DNA from: Candidatus Melainabacteria bacterium
GTDB lineage: Bacteria; Cyanobacteriota; Vampirovibrionia; LMEP-6097
Direction: 5' to 3'
NCBI GenBank assembly: GCA_028817775.1
Contig: JAPPOW010000214.1
Coordinates: 1 to 33,922, forward strand
DNA length: 33,922 nucleotides
In this document: positions 6,416-31,515 of the stretch, piece by piece
Numbering within the stretch: the stretch's first letter is position 1
Layout of the letters: the number at the start of each line of letters is the position of its first letter
Notes under the pieces: model-generated
Seen by the model: only the letters and a program-made list of their open reading frames with translations
Databases searched by the model: none
Told to the model about the DNA's origin: nothing
Translations under genes and position numbers: made by a program

Positions 6416-6506
6416 GTCATTGCGAGGAGTGCCACGACGAAGTAATCCAGTGGACAAGTCATGTCCGTGCATTAGATTGCTTCGTCACTTCGTTTCTCGC
6501 AATGAC
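6416..6506. repeat. Palindromic element A1 (gtcattgcgag ... ctcgcaatgac)
   Basis: Terminal inverted repeat gtcattgcgag/ctcgcaatgac plus inner arms; two other copies in window (15292, 30571). Confidence 0.9.
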
Positions 6507-10360: not shown

Positions 10361-10451
10361 TGTCATCCTGAGAAGCCGCAGGCGACGTAGGGATGCCAGT
10401 GTTACCTATTTGATAGGGAGATCCTGACGCCCTAAAGGGCTCAGGATGACA
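10361..10451. repeat. Palindromic element B1 (tgtcatcctgag ... ctcaggatgaca)
   Basis: Terminal inverted repeat shared with copies at 14360 and 25665. Confidence 0.9.
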
Positions 10452-14473: not shown

Positions 14474-15289
14474 ATGCAGTTAATAGATACTCACGCGCAT
14501 ATTTGTTTTGATTCCTATGATGAAGATAGGCAGGAAATGATGGCTCGTGCTTATGATTCTGGGGTTTTTAAGTTATTGCATCCTTGTTGTAATCTTGATG
14601 AGATTCCGGCTCTACTTGGCTATACTAAGGAATATGACGGTGATGGCAAGATCGATCTTTATACTGCAATGGGTTTGCATCCCACCGAGATTGAGAAGTG
14701 GGATGAAAACTCCGCTGCCAGGATTGCTGAATACTTAGATCAAGAATTAGCTAAGCCTGATCACAAGGTTAGAGCAGTGGGGGAGACTGGGCTTGATTAC
14801 TATCATTGTAAGGATGAGGAGTCACAAGCCAGGCAGCGAGGGATCTTCCGTGAGCAAATTGCGCTGGCTAAGAAATATCAATTGCCTTTGATAGTGCATA
14901 CGCGTGATGCTTGGCAGGATACTCTGCAAATTCTAAAAGAAGAGTATCCAGAGGATAGGAACGCGCATCATGGCACTATTCATTGTTATACCGGAAATTA
15001 TGAATTTGCTTCTGAAGTTATTGAGCATGGTTTCTATATTTCATGGTCTGGTATTGTTACTTACAAGAAAAATGATGAGTTTAGAGAGATTGCCGCTAAG
15101 ATCCCCCTAGACAGGGTTTTGGTGGAGACTGATTGTCCGTTCTTGGCACCGCAAGCTCAGCGCGGTAAGCGTAATGAACCAAGTTTTGTGAACTATGTAG
15201 CAGAGACTTTGGCTGAATGCTACAAGATTAGTAAGGAAGAGCTGGCGGGTATTAGTACTGAGAATGCGACTCGTTTGTTTAAGCTTTAA
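14474..15289 (+). CDS. tatD: TatD family metal-dependent hydrolase
   Basis: LIDTHAHICFDSYDEDR, AVGETGLDYY, PLIVHTRDAWQDT, VLVETDCPFLAPQAQRGKRNEPSFV. Confidence 0.95.
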   Translation: MQLIDTHAHICFDSYDEDRQEMMARAYDSGVFKLLHPCCNLDEIPALLGYTKEYDGDGKIDLYTAMGLHPTEIEKWDENSAARIAEYLDQELAKPDHKVRAVGETGLDYYHCKDEESQARQRGIFREQIALAKKYQLPLIVHTRDAWQDTLQILKEEYPEDRNAHHGTIHCYTGNYEFASEVIEHGFYISWSGIVTYKKNDEFREIAAKIPLDRVLVETDCPFLAPQAQRGKRNEPSFVNYVAETLAECYKISKEELAGISTENATRLFKL

Positions 15290-16223
15290 CTGTCATTGCG
15301 ACCGCGAGCCAAAGGCGTGGCGGGAAGCAATCCAATGCACTAGCCATGTCTTTGCATTGGATTGCTTCGTCACTCTGTTCCTCGCAATGACCTTAGTCTT
15401 CAGTCCGGTGCTGGCTGAACCATCAAATGATGATCTGCGTGATCTATTACTTACAGGCAATGTCGAAGCAGTAGTCCAAACTGTAGAAGCGGATAGAGCG
15501 ATCAATTGGTCTAAGGATAAGCTCAAGATCAATCCGCTTGCTTCTGAGTATTATGCCATCGCATTAATCGTTCTTGGTGACATCGATAAAGCTAAGTATT
15601 TCATCGATAAAGCTAGAGACTTTCATCCTAAATCTCAAGCACTGAGAGACTGTGCTAAGCAATTGGATTTTTTTGCACAGCATTTTATAAATAAGGATCT
15701 CAAGTTTACTAAGCAAGAAAAATTGCATATCAAGCTTTATGATTTATTGCATCTATATTTGGCAGAAGAGCCTCAATCCAAACAAGCTACTAAGTTAAAA
15801 CAAAAAATTCTCAAAGAAGTAGAGAAGCTAGATGGGGCGCTGCCATATTTTATGACCAAGCTTGACTATCTCTCTGAACTTAATGATCCAAGTTTGGTTG
15901 ATCAAATATCTAAGCAAGCCTTTGATACTATTGCAGCCAAGCGCAAGATTTTATTCCCTAAGACTTTGGATTTCTATGAACTGGCTTCTGCTTACAAGGC
16001 TCTAGCCAGGCTTAGTATTCAAGCTGGAGACAAGGCTAAAGCCACTCAGTATATTAAACTTGCGCGCAGTAATATTTTTAAGATGAAAGCTTTGTGGCTG
16101 GAAGAGGATACGCGTCACTACCGTAAGATCTTAAAGATGGAACAACGAGTGACAAGCTTTGGTTATGTCCTACCACAGTGGTTGATTCTATTACGTGAAG
16201 AGTATGATGCTTACTTGAATTAA
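15264..16223 (+). CDS. Hypothetical exported TPR-like helical protein; 5' end passes through element A2
   Basis: Putative signal h-region FALDCFVTLFLAMTLVFSPVLA-EPSN; start uncertain (15264 ATG, 15357 TTG or 15387 ATG). Confidence 0.7.
   Translation: MRLVCLSFNCHCDREPKAWREAIQCTSHVFALDCFVTLFLAMTLVFSPVLAEPSNDDLRDLLLTGNVEAVVQTVEADRAINWSKDKLKINPLASEYYAIALIVLGDIDKAKYFIDKARDFHPKSQALRDCAKQLDFFAQHFINKDLKFTKQEKLHIKLYDLLHLYLAEEPQSKQATKLKQKILKEVEKLDGALPYFMTKLDYLSELNDPSLVDQISKQAFDTIAAKRKILFPKTLDFYELASAYKALARLSIQAGDKAKATQYIKLARSNIFKMKALWLEEDTRHYRKILKMEQRVTSFGYVLPQWLILLREEYDAYLN
15292..15391. repeat. Palindromic element A2
   Basis: gtcattgcgaccgcgagcc ... tgttcctcgcaatgac, inner arms gaagcaatccaatgca / tgcattggattgcttc. 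Confidence 0.92.
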
Positions 16224-21227: not shown

Positions 21228-21869
21228 ATGTCAAAAAGATTTATGGTAATAGCACTTGCTATTGCTCTGGGATTTTTAAATTTCAGCGCAACTGAAGTGG
21301 AAGCAAAGAAAAAACGCAAGAAATTAGGTTTTGAAATTCAGGATTGTACCCGCATTAAGGGGCAGCCAGATATTTATATTTGTCTCAAGGGTGAGGCTGG
21401 TGATGGGACTTTGAGCCAACGTAAGCTTAATTCAGTTAGTTCTAAAACAGTTACTCTCATTGATCGATACAAAGCTAGGGCTGCAAAAAAGAAATCTGGG
21501 GCTAGAAAGTTTTTGGAGAACGATCCATGTGTGATAGATCCAATGTCTCCTGAATGTACGGGAGAAACAGAGTCAGATCCGTGTGCTATAGATCCAATGT
21601 CTCCTGAATGTACGGGAGAAACAGAGTCAGATCCGTGTGCTATAGATCCAATGTCTCCTGAATGTACGGGAGAAACAGAGTCAGATCCGTGTGCTATAGA
21701 TCCAATGTCTCCGGAGTGTACCGGAGAGACTAGTGATCCTTGTACGATAGACCCAATGTCTCCTGAATGTACCGGGGAAACAGAATCATCAGATCCATGT
21801 ACAGTAGATCCAAGTTCACAAGCTTGCACGGACTATATGTGCACAATGGACCCAAGTACTTGCATTTAA
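21228..21869 (+). CDS. Secreted Cys-rich tandem-repeat protein
   Basis: Signal peptide MSKRFMVIALAIALGFLNFSATEVEA; six DPC-x-IDPMSPECTGETES-type units; SD aaggaa. Confidence 0.8.
   Translation: MSKRFMVIALAIALGFLNFSATEVEAKKKRKKLGFEIQDCTRIKGQPDIYICLKGEAGDGTLSQRKLNSVSSKTVTLIDRYKARAAKKKSGARKFLENDPCVIDPMSPECTGETESDPCAIDPMSPECTGETESDPCAIDPMSPECTGETESDPCAIDPMSPECTGETSDPCTIDPMSPECTGETESSDPCTVDPSSQACTDYMCTMDPSTCI
21523..21867 (+). repeat. 54-bp coding minisatellite (about 6 units)
   Basis: Units beginning gatcc; units at 21577-21630 and 21631-21684 identical. Confidence 0.92.
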
Positions 21870-25664: not shown

Positions 25665-25751
25665 TGTCATCCTGAGGGAACGGAGTGACCGTAAGGATCC
25701 CATTGGTATTATGGGAGATCCTAACGTCGCCTGCGGCTCCTCAGGATGACA
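25665..25751. repeat. Palindromic element B3
   Basis: tgtcatcctgagggaacggagtgaccgtaaggatcc ... ggatgaca-type right arm; starts 2 nt after stop codon. Confidence 0.9.
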
Positions 25752-26853: not shown

Positions 26854-26980
26854 GCTTATGGTCACTACGTTCCCTGCATATGGCACTACGTGCCTGCTAA
26901 ATGCTCCGCTGAAGAATACAGGCGAAGCCCTACTGCAGGAGCGTAAGCTCCATATGCAGGGAACGTAGTGACCATAAAGC
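26854..26980. repeat. Palindromic element D with nested hairpins
   Basis: gcttatggtcactacgttccctgcatatgg (26854-26883) pairs with ccatatgcagggaacgtagtgaccataaagc (26950-26980), one bulge. Confidence 0.93.
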
Positions 26981-29286: not shown

Positions 29287-29940
29287 ATGGACTCCTTAAC
29301 TAATCTACTTCCAGATCTTGAGCCAAGCTTGCAAATTGTAGGCTTGCTTTTTTTACTTAGTTTTTTGCCAGTGATGGTTGTGACAATGACGCCATTTTTG
29401 CGTATTGTCTTAGTACTATCTTTATTGCGTCAAGCACTAGGTACTCAAAACGCACCACCAACTATGGTACTTGTTGGTTTGAGTTTGATTTTGACCGGCT
29501 ATATATTAGGTCCAGAGATTTCACAAATCAATCAGCGTGCTTTGATTCCGCTTGCTAATAATCAGATTCAACTGACCACTGCACTGGATAGAACTTATGA
29601 TGAATTATCAGGTCATATGCTGCGCAATGTAGATGTTAAAGATCTTAAGTTCTTCTATAAACTGAGTAGAGAACCCTTTCCGACCAAGGTTGAGGATGTA
29701 GCAGCAAGAGAGCTGGGTACTGCTTACCTATTAGGAGAATTGCGAAGGGCGTTTCAGATAGGTTTCTTGGTCTTCATACCATTTTTGGTGATCGATTTGA
29801 TTGTCGCCAATATTCTACTTGCACTGGGGATGATTATGCTATCCCCGACTATTGTTTCGTTGCCGTTTAAGATTATGATCTTTGTTGCCATTGATGGTTG
29901 GGATCTAATTGTCAAAGGACTTGCTCAAAGTTTCAATTAA
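29287..29940 (+). CDS. fliP: Flagellar export gate protein FliP
   Basis: LLSFLPVMVVTMTPFLRIVLVLSLLRQALGTQNAPP, FLVFIPFLVIDLIVANILLALGMIMLSPTIVSLPFKI. Confidence 0.97.
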   Translation: MDSLTNLLPDLEPSLQIVGLLFLLSFLPVMVVTMTPFLRIVLVLSLLRQALGTQNAPPTMVLVGLSLILTGYILGPEISQINQRALIPLANNQIQLTTALDRTYDELSGHMLRNVDVKDLKFFYKLSREPFPTKVEDVAARELGTAYLLGELRRAFQIGFLVFIPFLVIDLIVANILLALGMIMLSPTIVSLPFKIMIFVAIDGWDLIVKGLAQSFN

Positions 29941-29950
29941 GATTTAAGTA

Positions 29951-30742
29951 ATGGACTGGATGCCACAAGCAATTAGGGAGGGAATATTCACGATATTGTT
30001 CATATCGGGTCCTCTAGTCGTGCTTGCTGCAGGACTAGGTTTGACTATTGGTGTGATTCAAGCTGCAACCCAGGTCCAAGAGCAAACTCTAGGTTCTGCT
30101 GTCAAGATTATTGGTTTATTTCTTGCATTAATAATTTTTGGTTTCTATATGTTTCAGTATATGAGTAATTATGATTCTCAAACCCTGGAGCGAGCATTTA
30201 AGTTGGTGCCGACTCTTGGTACCAAAGCGATGCCTCGGCGTAACTTCCTGGATGTACCCAATGGTGAAGTTGAAGAGCCGATTCATACAGCTGAGTTGAA
30301 TGAAGCTGAGCCACATGAAAGCCATGGTGGTCATCACAAAGCTGGTGCACTTGATGAACCAGATCATGTCACTAAAAATGAGAACTTGAAACCAGTTGCA
30401 ATTAAACCGCCGCAGTCAGCTCTTAGACCTAATAAAGATATTGAAGCAATCAAGAAACAAGACTTGACTATCAAGCATGCTGATCATCATCATAGCCAGC
30501 CAAAAGTGCAGAAGCCTAGAGCTGAATCAATTCGACCAGCGGCTAAGCCAAAGACTAATACCCAGCAACCGTCATTGCGAGCGCAGCAAAGCAATCCAGT
30601 TACAAGCAGTCCAAAACCATCAACTGGATTGCCACGTCGCGTTGCTCCTCGCAATGACGAGGGTCCAAAGAAACCACCAAAACGTTTACGCCGTTCTAGT
30701 GTCAGCGATAGGCTCAATAAACTCAAGGGGCTAGGACGCTAA
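29951..30742 (+). CDS. fliQ: Flagellar export gate protein FliQ with long C-terminal extension
   Basis: First ~88 aa FliQ-like (GPLVVLAAGLGLTIGVIQAATQVQEQTL); aa ~89-263 His-rich/basic extension. Confidence 0.9.
   Translation: MDWMPQAIREGIFTILFISGPLVVLAAGLGLTIGVIQAATQVQEQTLGSAVKIIGLFLALIIFGFYMFQYMSNYDSQTLERAFKLVPTLGTKAMPRRNFLDVPNGEVEEPIHTAELNEAEPHESHGGHHKAGALDEPDHVTKNENLKPVAIKPPQSALRPNKDIEAIKKQDLTIKHADHHHSQPKVQKPRAESIRPAAKPKTNTQQPSLRAQQSNPVTSSPKPSTGLPRRVAPRNDEGPKKPPKRLRRSSVSDRLNKLKGLGR
30571..30658. repeat. Palindromic element A3 embedded in fliQ coding sequence
   Basis: gtcattgcgagcgcagcaaagcaatccagtt ... aactggattgccacgtcgcgttgctcctcgcaatgac. Confidence 0.92.
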
Positions 30743-31515
30743 TGGATTTATTCACTGATCTATTTCGCCAAAATTTGTTTGCCCAGATTGGTACTACTGT
30801 AGTGGCTTTGGGTTTTGTCTTGGTACGAGTACTAGCATTTATGCACTTTGCACCAATTTTCTCTCACAAGAGTGTGCCCTCGCATGTGCGTATTGGTTTT
30901 GCAATCTTCTTGACTAGTATGCTTGCTCCCAAAGCATTTGAGGCAGCGATTCCTGATGATGGTTTTTCTATCCTCTATGTCTTGTTTGCAAATTTTGCAC
31001 TTGGTTTCATTATTGGTTTCACCACTAATATTTTATTTACTACTGTCGTTGCTGGTGGTGAGATGATGGACGCAGCAATGGGTTTCTCCTCAGGGCAAAT
31101 GTTTGATCCAAGTCTTGGCGGGCAGACTACAATACTGGGTAGGTTTATGGGGATCTTGACCATTGTGGTTTTCTTCCAGATTGGTGGTCCTGAAGCATTG
31201 ATTCAGGGACTCTATAATAGCTTTGATACTTTCACTTTGTTTGATCCTAATATGACGATCAATGTTGCCAAGATTATTCATTTGGTTGGTGACATTATTA
31301 GAATGGGTTTTGTTCTTGTAAGTCCGGTGGTCTTGACAATCTTAGTTAATGATCTGGTCTTGGGCCTATTGTCGCGCGCTTCTCCACAGATCAATGCTTT
31401 CCAGATTTCATTCACGATTAAACCAATGGTAGGGGTTCTCATTTTGTTGATGATTTTGCCTTTATTCTTTACTGCTGTAGCCAACTTTTTGTCTTCTGGT
31501 TCAAGGCTTTACTAG
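30742..31515 (+). CDS. fliR: Flagellar export gate protein FliR
   Basis: VLVRVLAFMHFAPIFSHKSVPSHVRIGFAIFLT; order fliP-fliQ-fliR. Confidence 0.95.
   Translation: MDLFTDLFRQNLFAQIGTTVVALGFVLVRVLAFMHFAPIFSHKSVPSHVRIGFAIFLTSMLAPKAFEAAIPDDGFSILYVLFANFALGFIIGFTTNILFTTVVAGGEMMDAAMGFSSGQMFDPSLGGQTTILGRFMGILTIVVFFQIGGPEALIQGLYNSFDTFTLFDPNMTINVAKIIHLVGDIIRMGFVLVSPVVLTILVNDLVLGLLSRASPQINAFQISFTIKPMVGVLILLMILPLFFTAVANFLSSGSRLY

Follow-up and report, generated by a model that had tools for sequence, protein, structure and literature searches.

A CGTC-tagged REP-type palindromic dimer read in frame within the tail of a divergent FliQ-family gene of a Melainabacteria genome

A divergent FliQ-family gene of a Melainabacteria bacterium carries, in frame within its long C-terminal tail, an 88-nt palindrome that on its sequence features is a member of the CGTC-tagged REP superfamily and resembles in kind the Rickettsia palindromic elements (RPEs). 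Very probably, a non-autonomous dimer of this repeat has spread through the genome, copies that broke reading frames have been lost, and the copy in fliQ is a tolerated insertion. The repeat family, its in-frame copies, the element-free orthologues, the conservation of the frame past the element and the use of three frames can be read directly from the sequences analysed.

The element lies at positions 30571–30658 (plus strand) of the window, by which we mean the whole stretch of 33,922 nucleotides that was analysed, and which belongs to a 2.0 Mb MAG of 240 contigs that is 89% complete. In agreement with a preliminary description of the window, its ends form a perfect inverted repeat of 11 bp (GTCATTGCGAG/CTCGCAATGAC), inside which lies an inner arm pair (GCAATCCAGT/ACTGGATTGC). 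Once one flanking base per side is counted, CGTC...GACG tags are present at 30570–30659, which makes 90 nt in all; the outer C is missing from some genic copies. The dimer consists of two head-to-head units, a left unit at 30571–30599 on the plus strand, (C)GTC-ATTGCGAGCGCAGCAAAGCAAT-CCAG, which follows the CGTC-REP plan (PMC3733652), and a right unit at 30624–30658 on the minus strand, (C)GTC-ATTGCGAGGAGCAACGCGACGTGGCAAT-CCAG. In both units the stem opens with two complementary A/T positions, and a CCA-like tail is present (ATTGC...GCAAT-CCAG). In the left unit 5 bp pair cleanly and there are mismatches inside, compared to a stem of 8–9 bp and a loop of 4–5 nt in CGTC-tagged REPs, and the predicted RNA of the dimer prefers a single long hairpin spanning both units (−38.2 kcal/mol, z = −7.75). 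A search of positions 29900–31000 against Rfam, up to E = 1, gave no match.

The window contains six occurrences of the arm at up to one mismatch, where 0.48 would be expected, and 0 of 100 shuffles reached this count. The complete dimer pattern is found at two places in the window and at none in the shuffles. The further copies that had been proposed at 6416 and 15292 were both found, bringing the dimers in the window to three. The first of these is intergenic and has exact ends (6416–6506, plus strand). The second (15292–15391, plus strand) is located 2 nt past the stop of a TatD-like gene, and its left arm departs from the repeat at one position.

The host ORF (29951–30742, plus strand) encodes 263 residues and reads across the element without a stop. 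It is preceded by a gene of the FliP family that belongs to the same divergent set (29287–29940, plus strand, 217 residues) and followed by a FliR-family gene (30742–31515, plus strand), the ATG of which overlaps the fliQ stop (TAATG); in genus mates the two genes abut as TAG-ATG. Any translational coupling of fliQ and fliR at this overlap would need reading through the element. The dimer supplies the third base of codon 207 together with residues 208–236 (S208–D236), and Glu237 already belongs to the flank. The preliminary description was right that the frame stays open, and its approximate range of residues 207–236 is corrected to these limits. An example of a predicted peptide spanning the insert is AQQSNPVTSSPKPSTGLPR.

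The match to PF01313 is confined to residues 7–74 and is followed by a tail of ~175 residues, with the element ~130 residues beyond the FliQ domain. Long tails of variable length were found in the family members examined. AlphaFold on seven sequences predicts two core helices of moderate confidence, and the FliQ tail (residues 97–241) has mostly pLDDT values below 50; since the mean is 53, we use the contrast between core and tail alone. The confined domain match and the low-pLDDT tail place the insertion in a floppy tail and not in the gate, that is, in a variable, predicted-disordered region rather than in the gate core. With 60.8 bits the protein also falls short of the cut-off for the FliQ equivalog (TIGR01402, 88.9 bits), whereas a canonical 91-residue FliQ encoded elsewhere in the genome (G000:C170, G000 being this genome) scores 92.3 bits. 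Encoded alongside it is a FliP of the canonical type, which has a leader-like N-terminus and passes its own cut-off. The initial view of the host as a core flagellar export-gate subunit is thus misleading, because the element sits in a disordered tail of a divergent paralogue.

The genome accordingly holds two export-gate sets, the canonical FliP-FliQ (G000:C170, L145:5802–6925) and the divergent FliP, tailed FliQ and FliR (window 29287–31515). Two FliP and two FlhA copies are found in most genomes of the family, and several families of the class have one export-gate set and 0–4 rod-type proteins. The divergent set may represent a second, reduced flagellum-derived secretion system.

Named relatives in the FliQ alignment belong to Candidatus Caenarcanales and Melainabacteria (Vampirovibrionia, non-photosynthetic Cyanobacteriota). 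The alignment with sister genomes that had been suggested as a check showed that the FliQ proteins of two genus mates, G001 (248 residues) and G002 (246 residues), both lack the element peptide. The window FliQ would be ~233 residues long minus the element, and the aligned tails of the mates have other Pro/Lys-rich residues opposite it; the divergence of the sister tails is too great for an empty site in fliQ to be placed to the exact base.

Cleaner insertion sites were found in other genes. Stretches around repeat copies were taken, and a pair of arms was scored as a dimer if the two together had no more than two mismatches. In a large sample of the dimers in the genome, made up of the copies listed and some others, 11 of 45 are read in frame by long ORFs that extend at least 80 codons upstream and at least 25 downstream of the dimer; the in-frame fraction may shift with further copies. 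The hosts are PheT, FolP, HemW, QueG, TrmFO, an ABC transporter, ArnT-like, GlcF-like and YgjP-like proteins, a helicase and FliQ; TrmFO, the ABC transporter, the three "-like" proteins and the helicase, as well as all hosts in G002, were named from reading the sequences. Orthologues were aligned for HemW, PheT, FolP, QueG, the ABC transporter and the GlcF-like and ArnT-like proteins. The HemW insert (residues 147–174) and the PheT insert (residues 463–488) are cleanly absent in relatives from the genus, the family and the class. The FolP insert (residues 73–100) is absent in G001, the one aligned relative, and in a PDB comparison, and the main QueG insert is absent in G001 (split match 1–180/213–360) and others. 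QueG relatives have a variable linker at the insert point, which in G004 is itself an in-frame REP dimer at the same site. Alignments to PDB entries split at the insert in FolP (4–70/102–249), QueG (7–175/219–287) and HemW (1–141/169–219), and that of PheT shows a 20-residue gap there. The insertion sites in the ABC transporter and the ArnT-like protein are not as clean as the rest, and the YgjP-like protein has no aligned orthologue across its insert. In-frame dimers are also present in G002, in genes for GlcF-like (two), AcsA-like (two) and GlpK-like proteins, a PLP-type enzyme, a membrane protein and a helicase. The helicase insert is at the same site in G000 and G002, and GlcF inserts are found in both. 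With 11 of 45 copies in frame and element-free orthologues in the best cases, the data support the Rickettsia-like in-frame insertion first suggested for fliQ.

All three frames of the element are in use among the hosts (SLR-, HCE- and VIA-frames), which argues that no particular peptide is selected. The 34 non-genic dimers have 1.8 of six frames open, so that a random insertion into coding sequence would be open and in phase ~10% of the time. A chance product of ~10^-11 presumes that every broken host is recognisable and was given no weight. When elements were cut out by script and the ORFs rejoined, eight candidates for broken host genes emerged and none was recognisably broken; seven, on inspection, were neighbouring genes joined at a stop-side repeat or cases of a C-terminus formed by the repeat; the remaining candidate is the 15292 copy, which follows the TatD-like gene. 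Together, 11 copies in frame and no recognisable broken host point to loss of the other coding insertions.

These observations suggest a model in which a non-autonomous CGTC-tagged REP dimer would spread through the Caenarcanales genome, presumably by transposition. Copies landing just past stop codons or in spacers would be neutral, and frame-breaking copies would be lost, probably by selection. The genic copies that survive would be the minority whose frame is open and whose net length can be divided by three, sitting in loops, linkers and disordered tails able to tolerate ~30 extra residues. The fliQ copy would be one of these, tolerated, probably translated through its −38 kcal/mol hairpin and probably without effect on export.

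An improbable alternative is that the element in fliQ has been co-opted, either to form a functional segment of the tail or, within the fliQ-fliR message, a hairpin with a regulatory role. The strong RNA hairpin lies just upstream of the overlapping fliR start, some inserts persist, as in the helicase of two species and the GlcF inserts of both, and at 15292 the element forms part of a putative signal peptide. Persistence, however, is also expected of neutral insertions, the FliQ proteins of the genus mates do without the element, and no common peptide is present, because different hosts use all three frames. In broader terms, REP dimers in the genus might be a standing source of new protein sequence, some of it taken into use (for example the signal peptide at 15292 or a tail segment of the second export gate), which we regard as unlikely.

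Whether the fliQ tail is translated through the element bears on a second alternative, in which a frameshift or a separate downstream ORF would make the in-frame reading accidental. The tail is fast-evolving and of low complexity, and a second ORF (30477–30734) overlaps it. However, the segment past the element (30674–30742, plus strand) encodes, in the same frame, a C-terminal motif common to the relatives, PKRL.RSSVS.RLNKL.G.G, and differences from G001 over the last 22 fliQ codons number 6, 6 and 17 at the first, second and third codon positions. This third-position bias and the conserved C-terminus indicate that the frame past the element is translated; a frame ending before 30571, which had been named as grounds for rejection, is not what the present assembly contains, and we hold an untranslated tail to be very improbable. 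That a repeat-driven misjoin or binning error put the element into fliQ is scarcely credible: the MAG is fragmented and repeats are known to cause misjoins, but the FliQ-FliR order and the in-frame C-terminus on the far side agree with the relatives, and random misjoins cannot explain in-frame copies in 11 ORFs and in separately assembled genomes.

The exact arms occur 180 times in the genome (91 + 89), compared to none for the reversed control. Head-to-head dimers, counted for the exact-ended type alone, number 25 in this genome, 24 in G002, none in G001, two in G004 and one in G005. The 180 exact arms against 25 dimers indicate that many arms are single, have degenerate partners or are otherwise arranged. 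Weaker similarity to the element reaches other families of the class. As for how the repeat moves, the genome contains four Y1_Tnp genes, and no repeat bracketing them was found in the fetched flanks of all four, so a RAYT link for the spread is unsupported. No target-site duplication was seen by eye in the flanks of the 11 genic copies.

Several further observations concern repeats and gene ends. At 15264–16223 the 3′ half of the 15292 copy is read in frame into the start of the next gene, where a TTG at 15357 gives MDCFVTLFLAMTLVFSPVLA followed by EPS, signal-peptide-like by eye. The counterpart gene in G002 has its own leader, MTKNRHFIFALCVLLISFNPCLA followed by EPS, starting in the TatD stop, and the G001 TatD junction has a different repeat (VILSPQGVRIS) at the same place. 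Elsewhere, dimers form the C-terminus of the upstream gene at G000:C33:42689 and G000:C100:4072 (RuvC-like, ending ...SLRAALATKQSNA before the stop; ...YRSLRGNEMAEAIQSGDRN before the stop). A second palindromic family, TGTCATCCTGAG...CTCAGGATGACA, occurs at window positions 10361–10404 and 25665–25751, and its peptide suggests further copies at the G001 TatD junction and, in frame, within the TrmFO-like ORF. Long inverted repeats lie in spacers or gene starts at 2526–2653 and 26856–26977 (46 bp at 98% and 28 bp at 100%), and an in-frame 54-bp tandem repeat at 21519–21831 encodes DPCAIDPMSPECTGETES; the protein that contains it begins with a signal-peptide-like segment.

The textbook example of selfish palindromes within proteins comes from Rickettsia. 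The CGTC-tagged REPs include Rickettsia RPE-6 (CGTC-1) and RPE-4 (CGTC-4) and Neisseria dRS3 (PMC3733652), and intragenic REP dimers encoding 20–30 residues have already been described (Di Nocera et al. 2013, PMC3733652). The repeat studied here shares with these REPs the CGTC tag, the A-T start of the stem, the CCA tail, the occurrence of head-to-head dimers (the main arrangement of the published REPs), a location just past stop codons with some copies in frame, and, in the flanks fetched here, the lack of a dedicated transposase. It differs in that the fliQ copy does not cleanly match the described stem and loop and in its host, which as a member of the Vampirovibrionia (Cyanobacteriota) lies outside the five phyla for which CGTC repeats are listed (Proteobacteria, Chlorobi, Bacteroidetes, Spirochaetes and Thermotogae; PMC3733652); the abstract of the same paper places both REP superfamilies in deep phyla such as Cyanobacteria. 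In the papers searched we found no report of in-frame palindromic repeats in this lineage; the matches listed for Melainabacteria and palindromic sequences were unrelated papers, as were those for the exact repeat motif.

Bacterial MITEs offer a further parallel, as in Yersinia YPAL/RU-2, where a small repeat likewise provides residues of a protein, some of them in a signal peptide (PMC2229807); here, in contrast, no target-site duplication was seen and no transposase was identified. The divergent FliQ, for its part, shares with FliQ/SctS proteins (PF01313) the two-helix domain and the gene position between those for FliP and FliR, and differs in its ~175-residue tail, its score below the equivalog cut-off and its status as a second paralogue. 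The closest comparison is with the RPEs, which are given a length of 105–146 bp and described as encoding a conserved peptide (Ogata et al. 2000, 2002, via PMC2229807 and PMC10969869). In both cases functionally unrelated, conserved genes carry an in-frame palindrome that is apparently tolerated and is absent from orthologues (here HemW, PheT, FolP and QueG). For the R. conorii guanylate kinase, enzyme activity has been compared with and without the insert (reviewed in PMC2229807). Unlike the RPEs, most copies here are ~80–100 bp, use all three frames and have no preferred-frame peptide, and the host genome groups with Candidatus Caenarcanales, in another phylum, and not with Rickettsia. The kind of element, CGTC-REP or RPE-type, is thus already known; what is added is its recurrence across a genus, within conserved enzymes and in a lineage for which we found no earlier report. 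Three congeneric genomes with 25, 24 and 0 exact dimers provide a natural system for studying tolerance, spread without an obvious transposase and possible use, and PheT, FolP, HemW and QueG show RPE-like inserts in conserved enzymes of a phylum other than that of Rickettsia.
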